Positions 7,304-18,154 of a stretch of 56,219 bases of DNA are shown piece by piece (positions within the stretch are counted from its first letter, which is position 1; each line of letters starts with the position of its first letter). The translations under genes and the position numbers were made by a program. Origin of the DNA: Methanoregulaceae archaeon. GTDB lineage: Bacteria > Armatimonadota > Fimbriimonadia > Fimbriimonadales > Fimbriimonadaceae. The notes beneath the pieces were generated by a model, which saw only the letters and a program-made list of their open reading frames with translations, was not told the DNA's origin and did not search any database. The stretch spans positions 1 to 56,219 of the forward strand of contig JADZEW010000007.1 of NCBI GenBank assembly GCA_020850325.1. Reading direction: 5' to 3'.

Positions 7304-8203
7304 TTAGATCTCAGGCACGCCGAACAACCGCATCTCAATCTCGCCGTCTTGGCAGATCCACATCGGGAACTCGCCCGTGGTGCACGACGCGCCGAACTCG
7401 CCCGAGTTCGACATTGCGAGCACGACGCACATCATCTCGGTCGACTTTGGCTGCCGCCGGATCATTTGCCGGATCGTGGCGTCGCACGCTTCCTGAGGAG
7501 ACATCCCACCCCGCATGTACTCCACGGTGCGGAAGGACGCAGCCGCCTTCCAGAGCTCTTCGCCCCAGCCCGTCGCGCCTGCGCATCCGACTTCGTCATC
7601 GGCATAGATGCCCGCACCGACGATCGGCGAATCGCCGATTCGGCCCGGCATCTTCCAAGCCAATCCACTCGTCGACGAGGCCGCGACCACATGCGATGGA
7701 GCCTCCCAACCCAACACCGTCACCGTGTCGCCATGGTGCTCCTTATCGGAGAGCGCGTGGACGTACTCCTCGGTGCCTTCACGCGGCTTGTCGCGCCACT
7801 CCTCGTACCACCGCACGTTGTCGGTGGTCATCAGGTTGCGGACCTCGAAGCCCTTGCTCAGCGCAAACCGACGCGCCTGTTCGCCCGCCAGCATGACATG
7901 GGGGGTCTCTTCCAGCACCTTCCGCGCGACTGAGATCACGGGGACGATGCCGCGGACGCCGCAAACCGCACCCGCTTCTAAGTCGTGCCCGTCCATCATC
8001 GACGCATCGAGCTCGACCTCGCCGTCCGCGTTGGGAAGCGCGCCAAGTCCGATCGCAACGAGCGTCGGATCGAGTTCAGAAGCGGCAAGTCCAGACTCCA
8101 GCGCATCGCGCAGAGATCCTCCAGACGCGCGACGCTCCCAGGCCGCCTTGATCGCAACCTGGCCAGGCTCGCGCCATGTGGCAAGCAGAGTCGTCTTCGC
8201 CAT
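7304..8203 (-). CDS. N4-(beta-N-acetylglucosaminyl)-L-asparaginase
   Basis: N-terminal nucleophile hydrolase that splits the GlcNAc-Asn bond of glycoasparagines, releasing aspartate. The 299-residue precursor should cut itself between Asp159 and Thr160 in the sequence HHGDTVTVLG, which exposes Thr160 as the nucleophile. The beta-subunit then shows the family block STSGLAWKMPGRIGDSPIVGAG and the CAGATGWGE loop. No convincing signal peptide is visible ([14 protein letters not shown]), so a cytoplasmic location is likely. The start codon overlaps the aconitase stop by one base, so translation is probably coupled. Isoaspartyl peptidase activity is an alternative within the superfamily, but the motifs favour the glycosylasparaginase branch. 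Confidence 0.88.
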   Translation of the reverse strand: MAKTTLLATWREPGQVAIKAAWERRASGGSLRDALESGLAASELDPTLVAIGLGALPNADGEVELDASMMDGHDLEAGAVCGVRGIVPVISVARKVLEETPHVMLAGEQARRFALSKGFEVRNLMTTDNVRWYEEWRDKPREGTEEYVHALSDKEHHGDTVTVLGWEAPSHVVAASSTSGLAWKMPGRIGDSPIVGAGIYADDEVGCAGATGWGEELWKAAASFRTVEYMRGGMSPQEACDATIRQMIRRQPKSTEMMCVVLAMSNSGEFGASCTTGEFPMWICQDGEIEMRLFGVPEI

Positions 8204-10851
8204 CAGTTCGCCAAAAGCTGCCGCAGCACGTATTGGAGAATGCCGCCGTGGCGGTAGTACTCGAGTTCCTTCGGCGTGTCGATGCGCACCAGCACATCGA
8301 ACGCCTTGGTGTCTCCGTTGGCGACCGTAGCGCGCATGCGCAGCTTCTTGCCGTCGCGGAACTGACGATCCGCTTCGTAGGACAGGTCGAGCAACGAGTA
8401 CTCTTCGGTGCCTTCCAGCCCAAGACTCGCCGCGCTCTCGCCGGGCAGGAACTGGAGCGGAAGCACACCCATGCCGATCAGGTTCGAACGGTGGATCCGC
8501 TCGAAGCTCTCCGCGAGAACCGCCTTGACGCCCAGTAGGAACGTGCCCTTCGCCGCCCAGTCACGGCTCGATCCCGTGCCGTATTCCTTACCCGCGATGA
8601 CAAGGAGCTTGGTCTCGCGCCGGCGATACCGCTCGGCGGCTTCAAAGATGCTAACGACCTCGCCCGTCGGATGGTGGACCGTGAATCCGCCCTCGGTCTC
8701 CGGCGCAAGTTGGTTGCGCAGCCGGATGTTGGCGAAAGTGCCGCGAACCATGACTTCGTCGTGGCCACGGCGCGAGCCGTAACTGTTGAAGTCCTTCGGC
8801 ACGACGCCCCGACTCTGCAGCCACTCGCCCGCCGGCGAGTTCGCCTTGATCGCCCCCGCCGGAGAAATGTGGTCGGTGGTGATGCTGTCCCCGAGCAGCG
8901 CAAGCACCTGCATCGCGTTGAGATCTTGAATCTCTCGGGGAGCGTAGGCGGTCATGTCGTGGAAGTAGGGCGGGTTCTTGACGTAGGTCGACTCATCATT
9001 CCAGGCGAACCGATTGCCGCTCCCGCCGTCGATCTCGGCCCACTTCTCGTCGCCCTTGAACACGTCTTCGTACGATTCCACGAACAACTCGCGGCTGACG
9101 GCAGCTTCGATCATCGATGCGACATCCTCCTGCGACGGCCAGATGTCCTTGAGGAACACGTCGTTCCCTTCACTATCCTGACCGAGAGGGTCGTTCTGCA
9201 GGTTGATTTCGAGCGTGCCCGCGAGCGCATAGGCAACCACGAGCGGCGGCGACATCAGGTAGTTCGCCTTGACTTCCTGTTGGACTCGACCCTCAAAGTT
9301 GCGGTTGCCGCTGAGCACGGAGCACACGACGAGTTCCTCCTCTTGGATCTGCTTGCTAACCCATTCGGGGAGCGGTCCGGAGTTGCCGATGCACGTCGTG
9401 CAACCGTAGCCAACGACGTGGAAACCCACCTTCTCAAGATCTTCGAGGAGGTTCGCCTTCTTGAGATACTCGGTGACGACGCGCGAACCGGGAGCAAGCG
9501 ACGTCTTTACCCAGGGCTTGGGATGCAGGCCCCGACGGGCCGCATTTCGGGCGAGCAGCCCTGCCGCGACCATCACGGAGGGGTTACTCGTGTTTGTGCA
9601 GCTGGTGATCGCGGCGATCACGACGCTGCTGTGGGATAGCTTGTCGGGCTCAGGCGTGACGCCGTCAAGGGTCGGGAAAGCGGCGTGGAGAGATTCGCGC
9701 GCCAGTGCCAGCGGGATACGGTCTTGGGGACGCTTAGGACCCGCTACCGCCGGCTCTACTCCGGAGAGATCGAGCTCGAGGATGTCGGTGTAATCGGCTT
9801 CTGGCGTGTTCTCGTCATAGAACATGCCCTGCTCGCGGAGGTACGCCTCGACGAGTTGAATCTGTTCTTCTGAGCGGCCGGTGAGGCGGAGATAGCGCAG
9901 GGTGATGGCGTCAATCGGGAAGATGCCGCAGGTGGCGCCGTACTCAGGGGCCATGTTGGCGATCGTTGCGCGGTCGGCGAGCGGCAGAGTCAGCAGGCCC
10001 TCTCCGAAGAACTCGACGAACTTACCGACAACGCCCTTTTGGCGGAGCATCTCGGTCACGCGCAGGACCAGGTCCGTCGCGGTTGCGCCTTCGCGGAGCT
10101 TGCCCATCAAGCGGAAGCCAATGACCTGCGGAATGAGCATGCTGATCGGCTGGCCCAGCATGGCCGCCTCGGCTTCGATGCCCCCCACTCCCCAGCCGAG
10201 GACGCCAAGGCCGTTGACCATCGTCGTGTGGCTGTCCGTGCCAACCAGCGTATCGGGATAGGCCACGCCTTCATCGTTGACGAACACGACCCGCGAGAGG
10301 TATTCGAGGTTGACCTGGTGGCAGATTCCGGTGTTCGGCGGGACCACCTTGAAGTTCTTCAGGGCCGACTGGCCCCACTTCAGGAACTGGTACCGCTCAT
10401 AGTTGCGCTCGAACTCGAGGTCGCGATTGATCAGCAGGGCGGCTTCGCTGCCGTAGGCATCGACCTGGACCGAGTGGTCGATGACGAGTTCGACGGGCTG
10501 GAGCGGGTTGATCTTGGCGGGGTCACCGCCGAGTTCGGCCATCGCGTCGCGCATGGCGGCGAGGTCGACTACGCACGGGACACCGGTGAAATCTTGGAGC
10601 AAGACACGTGCGGGCATGAAGGCGATCTCATGGCTGGGTTCCGCCTTCGCGTCCCAGTTGAGAAGCGCTTCGACGTCTCCCTTGTCAACCGTGCCGTTAC
10701 CTTCGCATCGAAGGAGATTCTCCAGGAGAATCTGGAGAGAGAAGGGCAAGCGGTCGAGCCGGTGTCCCTGTTCGACGAGCGTTTTGAGGCGGTAGACGGT
10801 GAGCTCTTTGCCCGCCATCGAGAGGGTCGCACGTGCCTGAAAGGAGTTCAT
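8203..10851 (-). CDS. acnA: Aconitate hydratase (AcnA type)
   Basis: Citrate to isocitrate isomerase of the TCA cycle. The 882-residue protein has the AcnA/IRP domain order: an N-terminal catalytic part with [27 protein letters not shown], the iron-sulfur ligands in [11 protein letters not shown] and [12 protein letters not shown], and the swivelling C-terminal domain with [34 protein letters not shown] and [16 protein letters not shown]. All three cluster Cys are present. Length fits the family (about 890). The ATG at 10851 gives [22 protein letters not shown], normal for AcnA. It shares a transcript with the glycosylasparaginase, the two genes overlapping by one base. Confidence 0.96.
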
Positions 10852-10903
10852 TGTGTTGGGTTGAGGATACCGCCAACGGGATGACCGATTTCAGATTCCC
10901 GTG

Positions 10904-10945
10904 ACTCCCCCTCCCCGCAACCGGGGTTCGGGGGCTGGGGTCAAC
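10904..10945 (+). repeat. Inverted repeat flanking the RHS locus (left arm)
   Basis: ACTCCCCCTCCCCGC ... GGGGGCTGGGG ... GTCAAC. The same blocks occur in reverse at 12953-12998, so the two copies bracket the RHS region. The unit resembles common GC-rich intergenic hairpins. Confidence 0.55.
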
Positions 10946-11534
10946 GTTCGACCTGGCACCCCGCCGACAAGACCCTACCCGTGGCTGGCTCGTAATACCT
11001 CGCCCGCATGTAGATCAACGAGCTCTCCGAGTCGGATACGTGCCCAATCGAAGCGACATACCCTTGCTTCGGATCAGCAGAAGATCCTCCACTACGCACG
11101 GAGCCCCACACATCATAGGTCTTCCAGTTTCCGGTGTCGTAGCCCGTGCCATCGCGAGTCAGCAACGCTCGCATGTTGCCATGCCCGTCATACATCGGGT
11201 AGGCCAGGGTGGTACTCCCCGACTCCGTCCGGGCGATTCGATCAATCCCTCTTGCGCCGAGGATGTACCGGTTGACCTGAGTCACCGTCCCCGAAGGGTT
11301 GTAGTCGTCTTCACATCTCATCTGCCCATCGTAATAATAACGCGTTGTCGGCTGGTTCGTCGCGTAATTGACGTCGTAATGCCCCGAAGGGTTGCCCATG
11401 GTGGTTCCCGGACCGGTGGTTGTCCACACGTAGGTGGCCCCTTCGACCTTCTCGATGCGCTGGCCGTCGGCTCGGTAGGCATAGCCCGCGCCGGTGGAGG
11501 GCTGGGCCAGGAGGGTCATGCGGTTGAGGACGTT
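10941..11534 (-). pseudogene. Displaced RHS core fragment
   Basis: A remnant of an RHS repeat protein. From NVLNR (about 11534) to YYEPATGR it matches residues 73-252 of the neighbouring RHS protein, including YAYRADGQRIEKVEG, RYYYDGQM, LGARGIDR, YDGHGN, TYDVWGSVRSG and the core-ending SLIYMRARYYEPATGR. After ATGR it diverges (VLSAGCQVER, then stop) where a tip domain should begin, so the tip is lost. Upstream of NVLNR the frame runs into the 44-residue ORF at 11573-11707, and no start or ribosome site fits. The likely history is an orphan RHS C-terminal module displaced by recombination and then trimmed. Confidence 0.8.
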
Positions 11535-11572
11535 GCCTCTTGGCAGCACGATAGAGCCATTTTCAGATTCGT

Positions 11573-11707
11573 CTAGGATGATGTGAGATAGAGCCACAAT
11601 GCCACACCACCTAAAAGCACAAACCCTAGGATTCGGATCACAATCTCATCCAGTAAAGCATCCAAGAGAAGAGACCACCAGCGTGACTTGGTAGGCTTAG
11701 TATCCAT
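11573..11707 (-). CDS. 44-residue membrane protein, candidate RHS immunity protein
   Basis: A small gene that starts inside the last codons of the RHS gene (the ATG lies within ...TATGGATACTAA), in another frame. A strong GGAGGA sits 9 bases before the ATG. The product begins MDTKPTKSRWW, has a short amphipathic stretch (SLLLDALLDE) and one transmembrane helix (IVIRILGFVLLGGVALWLYL). Overlap with the toxin-bearing gene, ideal ribosome site and membrane character match what is known of immunity genes beside RHS or contact-dependent toxins. By hand count 57 of the 120 bases at 11581-11700 are G or C, low for this window. The immunity role is inference; no homologue is recognised. Confidence 0.6.
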   Translation of the reverse strand: MDTKPTKSRWWSLLLDALLDEIVIRILGFVLLGGVALWLYLTSS

Positions 11708-12926
11708 ACAGTAGTTCCTCCATGATCAACACTGCGTTACCCATGTGCGCAGCCAACACACGGCCAATGGGGCCATTGAGCTCTCTGCGTTCATCATGAA
11801 AGGGCTGGGAACCTGTAAACAGCACTTTTCGTCCCGCTGCCGCTGCTGCTCTCGCATAGAGGTGCTTTCCCAGCTCAATGCGATTCATCGCTCGGATGGC
11901 TTGCCCCATGGTCATTGTAACTTTCAATGCTTCTGTGAAGTGCTTCACCCAAGCTGCTCCAATAGCACCTGTAGCCATCGAAATCGCTACCTCTCCCAGG
12001 TCAATGCTACCGTACAGCAAGTATTGCATCCCGGCACTAAACAAGCCACTCACGAGGGCCCCAGCTACCAGATGCCAGAATTTGCCACTGAAGTCCGCTC
12101 GATCAATCGGGTTACTTCCGCAGTAAAGAAACCAATTGGCCCCATCCCTAGCGGGATCCTCGGAGATGAACCTCCCCGTCGCGGGTTCGTAGTATCTCGC
12201 CCGCATGTAGATCAGCGACGATTCATCATCCGCGACATGCCCAATCGAGGCGACATACCGGCTCTTCGGATCTCCAGTGGCGGAACCTGATCGCACGGAG
12301 CCCCAGACGTCGTAGGTGCGCCAGTTCCCCGTGCCGTAGCCGGTTCCGTTCTTGGTGAGGATGGCGCGGCAGTTGCCGTGGCCATCGTAGATGGGATAGC
12401 CGTGCGTGGTGGCGCTGTTCTCGGTGATCGAGATTCGGTCGATGCCCCGCGCGCCGAGGACGTTGCGCGTCACCTTCGTGATTGTGCCCGAAGGGTTGTA
12501 GTCGTCTTCAAATCCCATCTGCCCATCATAATAATAACGCGAAGTGGGTCGGTTTTGGGCATAATTCGTGTCGTATTGGCCAGATTCTCGGCTGCCGGAC
12601 CACGAGAACGTGATCCCTTCCACCTTCTCGATGCGCTGGCCATCGGCTCGGTACGCATAGCCCGCTCCGCCGGTGGGCTGGGCGATGAGGGTGGCCCGGT
12701 TCAGCACGTCCCAGTCGTAACGCATGGGGTGGGCGTGGTTGGCGGTGGAGGCATTTCGGCGGGTGCGGTTGCCGAGGATGTCGTGTTCGTACGTCCACGC
12801 GCTCAGCGAACCGCCCGAGACGAGCGGCGGCGAGGTGGTCATGCGATTGAGGTGGAGAGCCTGTCGCGGGACGAACCCACCGCGACGCTCCGTGTCAATC
12901 CGAGTTCTGAACTCTTCAATATTCAA
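11697..12926 (-). CDS. RHS repeat-associated core protein with variable C-terminal tip (N-terminally short)
   Basis: Polymorphic-toxin type protein. Of 409 residues, about 1-80 are RHS repeats (AWTYEHDILGNRTRRN, MRYDWDVLNRATLIAQ) and 81-257 the RHS core, ending in RARYYEPATGRFISEDPARDG and NPIDRADFSG. Residues 282-409 form the tip, with two hydrophobic segments (HLVAGALVSGLFSAGMQYLLYG; EVAISMATGAIGAAWVKHF) followed by a charged end. Complete RHS proteins are usually over 1000 residues with a signal or export module. This frame starts abruptly without a ribosome site, so it is probably the surviving C-terminal part of a larger gene or an orphan module. The tip matches no toxin family known to me; the hydrophobic pairs suggest membrane activity. 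The stop overlaps the candidate immunity ORF. Confidence 0.8.
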   Translation of the reverse strand: MNIEEFRTRIDTERRGGFVPRQALHLNRMTTSPPLVSGGSLSAWTYEHDILGNRTRRNASTANHAHPMRYDWDVLNRATLIAQPTGGAGYAYRADGQRIEKVEGITFSWSGSRESGQYDTNYAQNRPTSRYYYDGQMGFEDDYNPSGTITKVTRNVLGARGIDRISITENSATTHGYPIYDGHGNCRAILTKNGTGYGTGNWRTYDVWGSVRSGSATGDPKSRYVASIGHVADDESSLIYMRARYYEPATGRFISEDPARDGANWFLYCGSNPIDRADFSGKFWHLVAGALVSGLFSAGMQYLLYGSIDLGEVAISMATGAIGAAWVKHFTEALKVTMTMGQAIRAMNRIELGKHLYARAAAAAGRKVLFTGSQPFHDERRELNGPIGRVLAAHMGNAVLIMEELLYGY

Positions 12927-12952
12927 TCGTCAGTCATCAGTCGTCAGTCGGG

Positions 12953-12998
12953 TTGACCCCACCCCCCAGCCCCCTCCCCGCTCGCGGAGAGGGGGAGT
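12953..12998 (-). repeat. Inverted repeat flanking the RHS locus (right arm)
   Basis: On the minus strand it reads ACTCCCCCTCTCCGC ... GGGGGCTGGGG ... GGGTCAAC, matching 10904-10945 in opposite orientation. Just beyond it (12927-12950) is a short run of GTCAGTC/ATCAGTC repeats. Confidence 0.55.
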
Positions 12999-13163
12999 AC
13001 CGGAGCCTCAGCGAATCCGCGAGCAGAGAGACTGAGTCCACGTGTAAGCTCACGCACTCGCGCAAAGAGCCTAACCGGGGCTAAAGACCGGAACGGCACC
13101 ATCGTGCGCGCGTCCCACGTTTATAGAAATGGGCAACACCTGCCGCTCATGGAGGATCGTTTG

Positions 13164-14114
13164 ATGAGGAAGATTTCCGTTTTCGCCTTGACCGCCTTGG
13201 CCGCCCTATCGATGGCCCAAATCGACTCGACCCGCACCATTGCCGTCATCAACGGCGAAGAGATCAAGGCGGCCGAGTATTACCGCCGCATGGAGTTCCT
13301 CTCCGGCGTGGGTAAGCAGGTCGGCAACTCCTTTGCCGAGTTCCCGCCCGGGTTCCTTACGATCGAGCAAATGATCACCGAGCGTCTCGTCCTGCAGCTT
13401 GCCAAAGAGCGGGGCGTGCTGCCCACCGCGGCGGAAGTCGAGGCCGAAGTGAAGCTCATTGAGACCGACGAACCCACCGTGATGGCGAACTGGCTCGCCT
13501 CGGGACAGACCCGCGCCGAGTTCGCGTCCATGACTCGCTACTCGATGGCCCAGTTCCGACTCACGACCCGGGGCATCACCATCACGGACGCCGAGGTCGA
13601 CAAGTTCTACAACGATAACCCGTCGCTGTTCTCGATTCCCAAGCAGGTTGGCCTACGCATCCTCGTGGTCAACACCGATGAGGCCCAACGTGCCGTCGAC
13701 GCCGAACTGGGGTCGGGGAAGAAGTTCGAGGACGTGGTCAAAGCGCACAGCATCGACTTGAGCAAAACTTCCGGCGGAGACTTCGGGATGCGCGCCTGGG
13801 ACGAGCTGTCTGAGCAGGCCCGCAAAGCGCTTGAGAACGTCCAGACCGGACAGACCAGCGCGTGGGTCGTGAGCGGCCCCACTCGGGTCAAGTTCATGGT
13901 GACGTCGGTCGTGGCTCCGCGCAAGCAAACACTCGATGCTCGACTGCGCCGATTGATCCGTCGTGAGCAGATGTTGACCAAGGGTCGCATCTCGAACAAC
14001 CTCACCAAGGACATGGCGGACTATCGTCGACGCGCGGTGATCGATATCAAAGAGAAGTCGTTCAGCGACTCGTACCGCAAGTTCGTCGAGACCCTCATCG
14101 GCGGCGGACAGTAA
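13164..14114 (+). CDS. Exported parvulin-type peptidyl-prolyl isomerase (SurA/PpiC-like)
   Basis: Periplasmic folding helper. The 316-residue protein has a signal peptide (MRKISVFALTALAALSMAQ), a helical SurA-type chaperone region beginning IAVINGEEIKAAEYYRRMEF, then a parvulin domain (about residues 165-260) with VGLRILVV, GKKFEDVVKAHSID and SGGDFGMRAWDEL. A helical tail follows. The ATG at 13164 is preferred over the upstream TTG because GGAGG lies 8 bases before it and the signal peptide begins there. A lipoprotein paralogue is at 25777-26832. It stands alone between the RHS locus and the pst operon. Confidence 0.87.
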   Translation: MRKISVFALTALAALSMAQIDSTRTIAVINGEEIKAAEYYRRMEFLSGVGKQVGNSFAEFPPGFLTIEQMITERLVLQLAKERGVLPTAAEVEAEVKLIETDEPTVMANWLASGQTRAEFASMTRYSMAQFRLTTRGITITDAEVDKFYNDNPSLFSIPKQVGLRILVVNTDEAQRAVDAELGSGKKFEDVVKAHSIDLSKTSGGDFGMRAWDELSEQARKALENVQTGQTSAWVVSGPTRVKFMVTSVVAPRKQTLDARLRRLIRREQMLTKGRISNNLTKDMADYRRRAVIDIKEKSFSDSYRKFVETLIGGGQ

Positions 14115-14167
14115 GTTCTCAACGGGCATCGGTTCTTCCGAATCGATGCCCGTTTTGCTGCGTAAAC

Positions 14168-14944
14168 CTATCCAAATCGTCCGTTGAGGTAGTCCCGCGT
14201 GACTTCGGATTGGGCCGACTCGAAGACCGCCTCGGTGTCGCCCATCTCGACTAATTCGCCCAGCATAAAGAACGCGAGCTGTGAACTGACCCGGTGCGCC
14301 TGCTGCAAGTTATGGGTGACGATCAGGACCGTATAGTCCTTCGACAGCTCCGAAATCAGGTCCTCGATCTTGCCGGTCGAGATCGGATCGAGCGCGCTGC
14401 ATGGCTCGTCCATCAGCAGGATTTCCGGCTCCACGGCGAGCATCCGCGCCAGACAAAGCCGCTGCTGCTGGCCACCTGAAAGCTCAAGCGCACTTCGGCG
14501 CAGGTGGTCCTTCACCTCGTCCCACAGGGCCGCGCGCTTTAGCGTTTCCTCAACCATGCCTTCGAGGGTCGAGCCCTTGATTCCGTAGTGCAGGCTGGGG
14601 GCAAGGGCGATGTTCTCAAACACGCTGCTCGGGAAGGGATTCGGCTTCTGGAACAGCATTCCGACGGCGCGGCGCAAGCGCATAAGGTCGGCGTTCTTCG
14701 CGTAGGGATCCATGCCCGCGACGTCAAACTTGCCAGTCACCTTCGCGCCGGGAATCCGATCGTTCATGCGGTTGAGGCAGCGCAGGAAGGAACTCTTGCC
14801 GCAGCCGCTCGGGCCGATCATGGCGGTCACCTGCCGCGCAGGCGCGGCAAAGTTGATCCCCTTCAGGGCTTGCTTCGTGCCGTAGTACAGGTTCACGTCC
14901 TCGGCGCGAACCGCGTGCTTAACGGCGCTTGCGACCGCTACCAT
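14168..14944 (-). CDS. pstB: Phosphate ABC transporter ATP-binding protein PstB
   Basis: Powers phosphate import through PstC/PstA at the inner membrane. The 258-residue protein has Walker A GPSGCGKSS, the Q-loop in LFQKPNPFP, signature LSGGQQQR, Walker B ILLMDEPCSALDP and the switch His in IVTHNLQQA; MRLRRAVGMLFQKPNPFP is typical of PstB. The ATG at 14944 lies inside the end of pstA (7-base overlap), so translation is coupled. The frame is open much further upstream, but that part is antisense-like read-through of pstA. It is the last gene of the phosphate operon; no phoU follows. Confidence 0.96.
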   Translation of the reverse strand: MVAVASAVKHAVRAEDVNLYYGTKQALKGINFAAPARQVTAMIGPSGCGKSSFLRCLNRMNDRIPGAKVTGKFDVAGMDPYAKNADLMRLRRAVGMLFQKPNPFPSSVFENIALAPSLHYGIKGSTLEGMVEETLKRAALWDEVKDHLRRSALELSGGQQQRLCLARMLAVEPEILLMDEPCSALDPISTGKIEDLISELSKDYTVLIVTHNLQQAHRVSSQLAFFMLGELVEMGDTEAVFESAQSEVTRDYLNGRFG

Positions 14945-15849
14945 CCCGCCTTCTTCCTCGCGCGAGTGCGGATGACGATCGCGAACAAGTTGATCGTCAA
15001 GACGAAGAGCATGAGCGTCAGACAGGTTCCCCATATGATTTTCTCCGGAATAACTCCACCCTGCCGATACCCTTCGGCGAGGTGGTAGGGCAAGTTGGCG
15101 ACCGGCTTCTTGAGGGTCTCCCAACCCAATGACAGCTTCTCGGTCGAGTAGTAAATGGCCGCGGTCATCAAGATCGGCGGCGCTTCTCCCGCGGCGCGGG
15201 TGACGGTAAGGACGAGGCCGGTCATGACTCCCGGCAGGGCCGAGGGCAACATGACTTTCCAGATCGTTTGCCATCGGGACAGGCCAAGCGCGATCGCGCC
15301 GTCTTCAATGGACTCAGGGACGGCACGCAGCGCCTGCTCGGTGGTGAGCACGACGATCGGGATCGAGAACAAGGCGAGCGTGAACCAGCCCGCAAGCAGC
15401 GAGGTGCCGAGCTTCAGTTTCAGCACAAAGATGGCGAGCCCGAACAGGCCGAAGATGATGGAGGGCGTACCGGCAAGCGTGGCGATCGATGCTCGTAGGG
15501 TCCGGGCCATACGGCCCTCGCCCGCGTACTCGGCAAGCCAGATTCCACCCAAGAGACCGAACGGTAACGTGAGGGCCAGCGTCCCGACCATGAGGAGGAT
15601 GGAGCCACGAAGCATCGGCCAGATGCCGCCCTTCGTCATTCCCTCCTCCGGATACGACGTCAGGAACTCCCAGCTGATCGCGGGCAACCCCTTGACCAAG
15701 ATCGTTCCGATCAGCGCCAAGGTCATCGCCACAACCAGGTAGTGGATTGACGTCGCTACCCCGACCAGGAACTTGCCCTGGCGCAGCCGCCGAACGTCGC
15801 GCTGGTGAAGTTCAGCTTGATTCGGACGCGCGCTTCCTAAGACCGCCAT
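14938..15849 (-). CDS. pstA: Phosphate ABC transporter permease PstA
   Basis: One of the two inner-membrane channel subunits for phosphate. The 303-residue protein has about six transmembrane helices and a binding-protein-dependent transport loop, EQALRAVPESIEDGAIALGLSRWQTIWKVMLPSALPGV, with the EAA-type Gly. GGIWPMLRGSILLMVGTLALTLPFGLLGGIWLAEYAG is also typical of PstA. The start overlaps the end of pstC by 13 bases and the stop overlaps pstB, so the three genes are translationally linked. Confidence 0.95.
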   Translation of the reverse strand: MAVLGSARPNQAELHQRDVRRLRQGKFLVGVATSIHYLVVAMTLALIGTILVKGLPAISWEFLTSYPEEGMTKGGIWPMLRGSILLMVGTLALTLPFGLLGGIWLAEYAGEGRMARTLRASIATLAGTPSIIFGLFGLAIFVLKLKLGTSLLAGWFTLALFSIPIVVLTTEQALRAVPESIEDGAIALGLSRWQTIWKVMLPSALPGVMTGLVLTVTRAAGEAPPILMTAAIYYSTEKLSLGWETLKKPVANLPYHLAEGYRQGGVIPEKIIWGTCLTLMLFVLTINLFAIVIRTRARKKAGW

Positions 15850-17300
15850 GCGGCCCTCCTCGCCAAGCGCTGACCCAGCAGATTACACACGATGGTGATG
15901 GCAAAGAGCACGAGGCCGATCAAGAACAAATGGCCATAGTGGGGCTGCTCGAACTCGACATTGGCCATTTCGATGCCCACGGTGTCGGCGATTCCGCGGG
16001 TCGATGCCACCAGAGCATCGACTCCCGTGGGCATGGCGGGAGTCCCCCCGGAGAGGATCCACACGATCATCGTTTCGCCGATGGCGCGGGCAAAGCCGAG
16101 GAGCAAAGCGGCATAGAGCGCAGGTTTTGCAGCTGGCAAGATCACCCGACGAATCGACTCACCCGACGTTAAGCCAAGCGCTTCAGCCCCGTCGCGGAGC
16201 GAACGCGGGATGTTGCGGAGCCCGTCCTCGGCGATCGATACGATCGTGGGGATGGTGAGCACGCCCATGACTACTGCCGCGGTCAGCAGACTTCGGCCCG
16301 ATTCCATGCCGAACGCCCTGCCCACCGTCGCCATCAAGCCTGGGGCAACAATCATCAAGCCGAAGTAACCGAGAACAACGGTCGGGATACTCGCCAGGAG
16401 TTCGATGATCGGCTTCAGCCACTCCCTTAAGCGGTGCGGAGCAAACTCGCTGAGATAGAGCGCGGTGAGCAGAGCGGGGCCGATCGCGAAGAGGATGGCG
16501 AGGATGGTGATGATCACCGTCGATAGCAAAAGCGGCATGAGGCCGTAGCGTGGATACTGCGTCGTCGGTGCCCACTCGGTCTTAAAGAAGCCACGAAGCG
16601 TCGCTCCGATTGCGCTGATCCCGGTGGGAGTCGATTCCAGCTCAAAGACGTAGCCTTGGGTGCGCTCGTCGTCGGTCTTGGCGATGAATGCGGGCAGCTC
16701 GATCTCGCCTCGGGGTCGAGTGCGCAGGTCGATGTCTACCGCGGGGGCGTCGATGCCCGCCGGTGCCTTGATCAGCTTAAGGCGAAGGTTATGGACGCTG
16801 AGGTCCGCATCGAAGGCCGCATCCGGCTCCCAGCGAAGGACAAACGACTTGTCTTGGTGTTCGGGGGTGGCGAAGGCGAAAAGCAAGAACTTCCGCTGTC
16901 CACCAGCATCGTGCCAGGATTGCCAGTTGTCGCGAGCAAGCATCAGCGGGTCGATGTTCGCGAGCTCACCCTCGACCAAACTGCCCGTCGCGAGGGTTGC
17001 AACCCCCTGGAGTTCAGCAAGGGTCGGCATCGGGATCGACTCTTTGTCATCGAGCCCGTCCATGCCGTCCATGTGAGAGGTCAGGACGCTGGCATTCGGA
17101 TCCATCTCGACCGCCTCACTTCGAGGAGCAGAGACAGGTTGAGCAGCGATTCGATACCCGTAGGGAAACTTGCGGTCGAACGCGTACCGCGACTCGAGCG
17201 ACAAGTACGCGAACATTCCGACGACCATGAGGCCAATAGCGACCCCACAAAACGCCACGAGGCGCTCCATGATCCAGTCGGTGACGCGGCCCTTCCTCAT
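15837..17300 (-). CDS. pstC: Phosphate ABC transporter permease PstC with large periplasmic insert
   Basis: The second channel subunit. Of 487 residues, the last 240 are an ordinary PstC (LLLSTVIITILAILFAIGPALLTALYLSEFAP, SIPTVVLGYFGL, and the transport loop EDGLRNIPRSLRDGAEALGLTSGESIRRVILPAA). Between the first helix (about residues 15-34) and the second lies an insert of about 200 residues, acidic and strand-rich, predicted to face the periplasm. E. coli PstC (319 residues) lacks it, although longer PstC forms with such inserts exist in other bacteria. It lies 41 bases downstream of pstS. Confidence 0.93.
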   Translation of the reverse strand: MRKGRVTDWIMERLVAFCGVAIGLMVVGMFAYLSLESRYAFDRKFPYGYRIAAQPVSAPRSEAVEMDPNASVLTSHMDGMDGLDDKESIPMPTLAELQGVATLATGSLVEGELANIDPLMLARDNWQSWHDAGGQRKFLLFAFATPEHQDKSFVLRWEPDAAFDADLSVHNLRLKLIKAPAGIDAPAVDIDLRTRPRGEIELPAFIAKTDDERTQGYVFELESTPTGISAIGATLRGFFKTEWAPTTQYPRYGLMPLLLSTVIITILAILFAIGPALLTALYLSEFAPHRLREWLKPIIELLASIPTVVLGYFGLMIVAPGLMATVGRAFGMESGRSLLTAAVVMGVLTIPTIVSIAEDGLRNIPRSLRDGAEALGLTSGESIRRVILPAAKPALYAALLLGFARAIGETMIVWILSGGTPAMPTGVDALVASTRGIADTVGIEMANVEFEQPHYGHLFLIGLVLFAITIVCNLLGQRLARRAAWRS

Positions 17301-17341
17301 AGGAATGTCGGGCCGGAGCCGAGGCTCCGGCCCAGTGCGGA

Positions 17342-18154
17342 CTACTTGACGGAGTAGTAGCCCACCTGCTCGACGATCCTCTGGCCCTCAGCGGAGAGGC
17401 AGAAGTCGATGAACGACTTGGTTGCGCCCGATGGCTTGCCATTGGTGTAGTAGTAGAGGTATCGCCAGATCGGATACTTCTTGCTTCGCACCATCTCCTC
17501 GGAGGGAGGGACAGGCTCGGCGCCCTTCGTCGGAGCGATGGGCAGCATCTTGGTGTTCTTCTTGTTAGCGAAGTAGGCCACACCGCCGTAAGCAATGCCG
17601 TTGGGGGTGCGGGCGACTTCTCGAACCTCTTCTGACGTCGACGGCATGAAGCGAACCTGCGAGCCCCAGTTCTGGTTGCGAAGCACCTTCTCCTGGAAGA
17701 AGCCGTAGGTTCCCGAGTTGCTGTCGCGGCTGAACACCGTGATCGAAGCGTTCGGTCCGCCCAACTCGCTCCAGTTCTTGATCTGGCCGATGTAGATGCG
17801 GCGAAGTTCGTCCATGGTGAGCGACTTCACCGGGTTCGACTCGTGGACCAAGATGGCCAAGCCATCGAGGGCGACCGGAATCTCGTTCGCGATGGCTCGG
17901 TTGCTGCGTGCGCTGGCGATTTCGCTGGCCTTCATCTTGCGCGATGAAGCGCAGATCTCGGCGACGCGGTTGATGAACGCTCGGATGCCGATCGACGATC
18001 CACCGCCGGTCACGCTGATCGAGACGTTAGAGTTGGACTTGCCATAGGCTTCGGCCCACCGCTGATTGAGAATCAGCAGGGTATCCGAGCCCTTAATGGT
18101 CACCGAGCCGGATTGGCCGGTGAGCATGGTAGCCGCAATGAGGGTGGTTAGCAT
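17342..18154 (-). CDS. pstS: Phosphate-binding protein PstS
   Basis: Periplasmic receptor that delivers phosphate to PstC/PstA. The 270-residue protein has the motifs of the class: GSDTLLIL, SVTGGGSSIGIRAFIN (phosphate contacts), SSRKMKASE, ALDGLAILVHESNPV, LRRIYIGQIKNWSELGG, and FSRDSNSGTYGFFQE, where the Arg/Asp/Ser/Thr residues bind phosphate. The signal peptide is short and lacks the usual positive charges (MLTTLIAATMLTG), so the true start could differ, but no better upstream start is seen. It begins 12 bases after the porin stop, in one operon. Confidence 0.94.
   Translation of the reverse strand: MLTTLIAATMLTGQSGSVTIKGSDTLLILNQRWAEAYGKSNSNVSISVTGGGSSIGIRAFINRVAEICASSRKMKASEIASARSNRAIANEIPVALDGLAILVHESNPVKSLTMDELRRIYIGQIKNWSELGGPNASITVFSRDSNSGTYGFFQEKVLRNQNWGSQVRFMPSTSEEVREVARTPNGIAYGGVAYFANKKNTKMLPIAPTKGAEPVPPSEEMVRSKKYPIWRYLYYYTNGKPSGATKSFIDFCLSAEGQRIVEQVGYYSVK

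Follow-up and report, generated by a model that had tools for sequence, protein, structure and literature searches.

Does the short open reading frame (ORF) that overlaps the end of an RHS gene fragment encode the immunity partner of a toxin tip, and if so, where would such a toxin act? This question is raised by a locus in the window, by which we mean the whole stretch of 56,219 nucleotides that was analysed, contig C7 of a 3.5-Mb genome. An earlier note, made from the letters of the sequence, had described the locus as an RHS protein with a hydrophobic tip and a small overlapping immunity gene. The features of the locus are collected in Table 1.

An orphan RHS cassette in a variable island

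The 409-aa ORF shows the arrangement of Rhs C-terminal cassettes, a core end of the RYYxPxTGRFxxxDP type followed by an unrelated variable tip. The NCBIfam model TIGR03696 (Rhs_assc_core) covers its residues 205-281 (E=1.2e-16), and the core motif RYYEPATGRFISEDP occupies 12197-12153, with about 150 residues behind it. This confirms the RHS core with a standard motif end that the earlier note had described. The designation as RHS protein is not borne out in the sense of a complete protein, as only the 3′ end of such a gene is present: the ORF lacks the N-terminal delivery half and its frame begins inside the RHS core, and therefore it is an orphan cassette and not a complete Rhs effector. By eye, no ribosome-binding site (RBS) is visible in front of its TTG start. 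In PHROGs the ORF matches two families of unknown function, both over the core only, and a PADLOC search with the whole 409-aa ORF gave no match. Just beyond the 44-aa ORF begins a second RHS-core fragment, which the earlier note does not mention and which is also devoid of an N-terminal half and breaks off at YYEPATGR, the expected start of a tip. The two cores are 74% identical, with a dN of 0.23 and a dS of 1.16 (dN/dS about 0.2). Elsewhere in the same genome five RHS places are present, which are only 27-31% identical, and thus no close full-length parent was found there. The loci L082, L083 and L084 (contigs C1, C8 and C35 of this genome) represent a second, distant RHS type, of which two copies carry a near-identical tip on different contigs.

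Both fragments are located in an island of 2.17 kb. When window positions 8201-17400 were compared with a congener (G130) using blastn, the congener matched 13044-16959 and 10112-10873 at 90% nucleotide identity and nothing between. In its place G130 has different open frames over about 2.1 kb; by eye, one product is secreted and another resembles a glycosyltransferase. Since the congener has no RHS island at this site, the island varies among species of the same genus. The palindromic repeats flanking the island were considered as the signature of a mobile element; a strict pattern was found in one copy in the window genome.

Table 1. Features of the orphan RHS locus (window positions).
Feature	Position	Strand	Basis
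Island with both RHS fragments	10874..13043	no strand	blastn gap vs congener G130
Orphan RHS C-terminal ORF, 409 aa, TTG start	11697..12926	minus	TIGR03696
RHS core remnant, end = RYYEPATGRFISEDP	12153..12845	minus	up to 60% identity to same-family cores
Variable tip, 130 aa, candidate membrane-acting toxin	11700..12089	minus	KD profile, no family match, AF2
GGAGGA RBS of small ORF, within last tip codons	11716..11721	minus	
44-aa ORF, ATG start; candidate immunity peptide with a single predicted membrane helix	11573..11707	minus	
Second fragment with RHS core (frame of 218 aa, homologous part 10965-11534), tip missing from YYEPATGR on	10941..11597	minus	
GC-rich palindromic repeat, one island end	12955..12997	plus	
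Similar palindromic repeat, inverted, opposite island end	10905..10942	minus	

The variable tip and the small ORF behind it

Counted from SGKFWH, the tip comprises 130 residues. The earlier note had given it 128 residues and two hydrophobic segments; these are present, with best 19-residue Kyte-Doolittle (KD) means of 1.57 (residues 7-25) and 1.15 (residues 29-47), but they are modest and are joined by a third (KD 1.13) close to the C-terminus. The strongest segments thus stand at the tip start, and residues 50-105 are less hydrophobic. Neither the tip nor the 44-aa peptide matches Pfam, NCBIfam, PHROGs or PADLOC, in agreement with the view of the earlier note that they belong to no known family. 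A PDB sequence search with the tip gave no match, a search through 291 genomes of the phylum yielded no convincing homologue, and the tip was absent from the genome contigs, viral contigs, phages and plasmids searched. Two matches within the phylum, in G004 (E=0.003) and G031 (E=0.006), were taken as chance, and among the open frames listed for these regions there is no RHS core. Kinship with the tip of locus L059 (phmmer, E about 2e-5 among 67) was rejected as well: one of 500 shuffled copies equalled this score, an iterated search did not hold the group together, and the corresponding alignment (A4) has no common pattern. The AF2 model of the window tip is all-helical, but its confidence is too low (pLDDT 49) for the model to be used, and a glycine zipper (GxxxGxxxG-like motif) is absent from the tip.

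The 44-aa ORF overlaps the tip stop by 11 nt, its ATG is preceded at a distance of 8 nt by GGAGGA, and it contains a single clear hydrophobic segment (KD 2.2). The GC content falls from 0.616 in the core to 0.531 in the tip and 0.467 in the small ORF, and GC3 falls from 0.765 to 0.546 and 0.511, respectively; in the comparison with other cassettes described below, the GC values of the window cassette are 0.598, 0.531 and 0.488. The overlap, the ideal ribosome site, the one membrane helix and the lower GC that the earlier note had ascribed to this ORF were therefore all recovered. When the 170 nt downstream were resampled, 35% of the trials produced an ORF of 44 aa or more that began near the tip stop; a hydrophobic ORF of this size came up in 3.5% of all trials, and one that also had a Shine-Dalgarno-like site in 1.7%. 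At this last rate it is unlikely that the ORF is fortuitous, yet the number is not overwhelming on its own. The peptide has no homologue in the loci examined. At 44 aa it marks the lower limit of the 49 membrane partners collected with a looser core pattern, the longest of which has 246 aa, and as it ends about 40 nt short of the next RHS homology, it is possible that it was truncated by the neighbouring RHS fragment.

Rhs cassettes of related genomes

A related RHS core (E<=1e-15) is present in 75 of the 291 phylum genomes. From the best-scoring regions of two families 40 were drawn, which together with the window make 41 loci. Full-length relatives have about 1,400-1,500 residues and an N-terminus that by eye resembles a signal peptide, and several loci contain head-to-tail arrays of cassettes, e.g., five in L042 and eight in L056. 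In the light of these cassettes and arrays, the RHS part of the window can be regarded as a displaced cassette of a sort that is usual in this clade. The arrays in L042, L052, L056, L059, and L063, each within a single genome of the family, consist of four to eight RHS-core/tip/partner cassettes, nearly all of them with different tips. In one genome two cassettes each occur twice, at a distance of about 130 kb and with the same tip in both copies (L053 and L054; G150, contig C1), and the cassette at 4491 of L047 has a simple repeat of GPRPKAQ in place of a tip and is apparently invaded or degenerate.

The best database matches of 63 tips from these loci are no better than 0.003 in Pfam and 0.004 in NCBIfam, and the tips are thus unannotated. 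A glycine zipper was rejected as tip signature, with the strict motif in 16 of the 63 tips vs. 10.6 in shuffles. A diverse, hydrophobic tip family (alignment A6, 12 aligned sequences, L049:2666-3040:-, L057:4265-4651:+, and L042:8722-9090:+ among them) has a common C-terminal pattern AV.A..AYSL...G.L. The model of this family has four long helices at moderate confidence (pLDDT 67.7). Using this model Foldseek found no match at E<=0.001, and the best match by VIA (Z 12.0), to a membrane subunit of the Mrp antiporter, is in the non-specific range for helical bundles and may at best hint weakly at a bundle in the membrane. Known pore-forming toxins were not among the fold matches listed, which excludes nothing, and for the window tip the family model would say little. 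On the partner side, Pfam FGE-sulfatase matches two of 63 (best E=2.2e-26; alignment A2; by eye those of L064 and L078); they seem to stand behind non-hydrophobic tips, and an enzyme-like domain is unusual at the immunity position.

The type of the partner follows the type of the tip

In total, 70 cores gave 63 non-redundant cassettes, with three short tips (below 60 residues) and four cases without an ORF left out. Blind to hydrophobicity, we took as partner whichever ORF was longest among those of 40 or more codons that start on the same strand within 60 nt of the tip stop. A partner was called membrane-like if a 19-residue stretch reached a mean KD of at least 1.9, and a tip was called hydrophobic at a value of at least 1.5. 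By these rules membrane-like partners are present in 48 of the 63 cassettes, vs. 30 of 194 after non-RHS frames, a baseline of other long open frames from the same and outgroup loci, some of which are spurious. Behind hydrophobic tips 47 of 56 partners are membrane-like, behind other tips one of seven (Fisher p=4.5e-4; 4.9e-4 without the window). Using the looser core pattern, tip and partner are concordant in 54 of 64 cases, a value equalled by seven of 20,000 permutations. The association holds at most cut-offs and is weaker at a tip cut-off of 2.0 (p 0.07 to 0.25). Some of the nine exceptions were made by the rule itself: in L055 and L072 it passed over a hydrophobic frame in favour of a longer neighbour, and the hydrophobic frame of L063 begins just beyond 60 nt. 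That the partner type follows the tip type is to be expected of a partner that has to work at the site of the toxin.

The membrane partners are also closely linked to the tips in position, as 34 of the 48 overlap the tip stop and 12 begin within 20 nt. GC is below that of the core in 60 of 63 tips and in 62 of 63 partners, and the drop in the tip correlates with that in the partner (rho 0.49, p=5e-5). This common drop and the match of the types support that tip and partner are exchanged as one unit. Hence, a downstream partner that moves with its tip was found for the class; of the exact window pair no second copy was found. The window cassette fits the set in layout, RBS and GC, and is a weak case in hydrophobicity (rank 53 of 63, just over the cut-off of 1.5). 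The layout of a toxin with an overlapping immunity gene proposed in the earlier note thus gains indirect support from the relatives with their membrane partners, but not as part of a complete RHS protein. Among other families of the phylum (L086-L105), four of 19 partners are membrane-like by the same rule, with six further cassettes without an ORF; as this set is small and some of its tips are hydrophobic, it does not demonstrate that membrane-type cassettes are restricted to the branch.

A probable displaced toxin-immunity cassette and its alternatives

We read the window locus as a displaced Rhs toxin-immunity cassette that is probably membrane-acting, like Tse5/Tsi5 or the CDI ionophores, without demonstrated kinship to them, and give this reading a probability of about 0.55. 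From the layout and from these analogies we infer toxicity, membrane depolarisation, immunity and delivery; most likely, the tip would insert into the membrane and depolarise it, and the membrane partner would prevent this. Carried by a complete Rhs protein that is exported through Sec, such a tip would reach a neighbouring cell, where its helices would enter the cytoplasmic membrane and the membrane potential would be dissipated. The 44-residue peptide, with its one helix in the membrane of the producer, would block insertion or assembly and in this way probably protects against the toxin tip. As an orphan, the cassette is probably either a silent reserve of a tip or a remainder that confers no more than immunity.

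Several other readings have to be weighed against this one. It is conceivable, although on balance unlikely, that the locus is dead, with both fragments as degenerating remains of an Rhs locus that has been lost, a partner truncated at the junction and no expression. Such decay would agree with the loss of the tip from the second fragment, the distance to all other RHS places of the genome (27-31% identity, no close full-length parent), the absence of the island in the congener, the TTG start of the 409-aa ORF and the partner being the shortest of 49. However, the 409-codon frame is unbroken, the small ORF has kept a strong RBS, the correct overlap and a hydrophobic helix, and the dN/dS of the cores also speaks against decay, though it reflects their earlier history. 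Rather improbable is that the hydrophobic half of the tip is an entry or linker segment and that the true toxin, a cytoplasmic enzyme, resides in the C-terminal 75-85 residues. The position of the strongest hydrophobic segments at the tip start and the less hydrophobic residues 50-105 would suit this arrangement, but a soluble partner would then be expected, as behind six of the seven non-hydrophobic tips of the relatives, and the tip matches no enzyme family. We consider it quite improbable that the 44-residue ORF arose by chance: resampling did yield a hydrophobic ORF with a Shine-Dalgarno-like site in the few cases given above and the ORF has no homologue in the loci examined, whereas 48 of 63 cassettes of the relatives have a hydrophobic ORF at the same position and the ORF shares its GC shift with the tip. 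Finally, a toxin-antitoxin module that acts within its own cell from an internal promoter, as reported for rhs genes including a Salmonella orphan (PMC7043789), would explain the orphan layout, the overlapping partner and the missing delivery half, but is very improbable, as the antitoxins described there are protein-binding and differ from a membrane peptide of one helix.

Relation to known systems

Taken as a displaced toxin-immunity cassette, the locus belongs to a known kind, a polymorphic toxin tip with membrane immunity. Tse5/Tsi5 of Pseudomonas aeruginosa (PMC9637101; see also PMC10684867) resembles the window cassette in having an Rhs C-terminal tip without predicted enzyme activity. 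Tse5 inserts into membranes and Tsi5 is an integral-membrane immunity protein, properties that are predicted for the window counterparts. Tse5 has an N-terminal PAAR-like domain and is delivered by a T6SS, whereas the window holds an orphan fragment with relatives that start with a signal-peptide-like sequence, and Tsi5 has two predicted membrane regions instead of one helix in 44 aa. The CDI ionophores of Escherichia coli make up a large and polymorphic collection of helical tips that depolarise membranes, and every tip is paired with a dedicated CdiI, a small hydrophobic immunity protein (PMC11630599). They are carried by CdiA and not by an RHS core as in the window, are predicted as five-helix bundles, whereas the tip family of the relatives was modelled with four helices, and CdiI proteins are hairpins of two helices with 72-100 residues, longer than the one-helix partner in the window. 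EsxX/ExiCD of the Staphylococcus aureus T7SS can be likened to the proposed window pair by its membrane-depolarising C-terminal domain and membrane immunity proteins, but has an LXG/T7SS carrier and a glycine zipper, which the window tip lacks (PMC12744356). Similar to the window cassette, the orphan rhs of Salmonella Typhimurium is a fragment without delivery part and with a partner gene; it adjoins a full-length rhs, in contrast to the window genome with no close parent found (PMC7043789).

Significance

In the open-access literature no paper on Rhs polymorphic toxin systems of Armatimonadota or Fimbriimonas was found, and the lone match for phylum and toxin topic, PMC12419801, concerns lipocone domains. 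The hydrophobic tips of the branch and their small membrane partners have no convincing Pfam match, and the tips have no convincing NCBIfam match either. Tentatively, and at slightly less than even odds, we propose that this branch of the Armatimonadota specialised its Rhs arsenal on membrane-acting tips, with the window cassette as a minimal case that has a one-helix immunity peptide of 44 residues. Such an arsenal might, with the same reserve, comprise dozens of mostly unalignable hydrophobic tips in arrays, each with a small membrane immunity protein. Taken alone, the window locus offers a known layout on a small scale and in partial decay; the set to which it belongs matters more, as it provides many unannotated pairs of tip and membrane partner in arrays from a poorly studied phylum. 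If these are ionophores, they would offer dozens of independent toxin-immunity pairs for studying how small membrane proteins recognise and block pores and what minimum length suffices for this.
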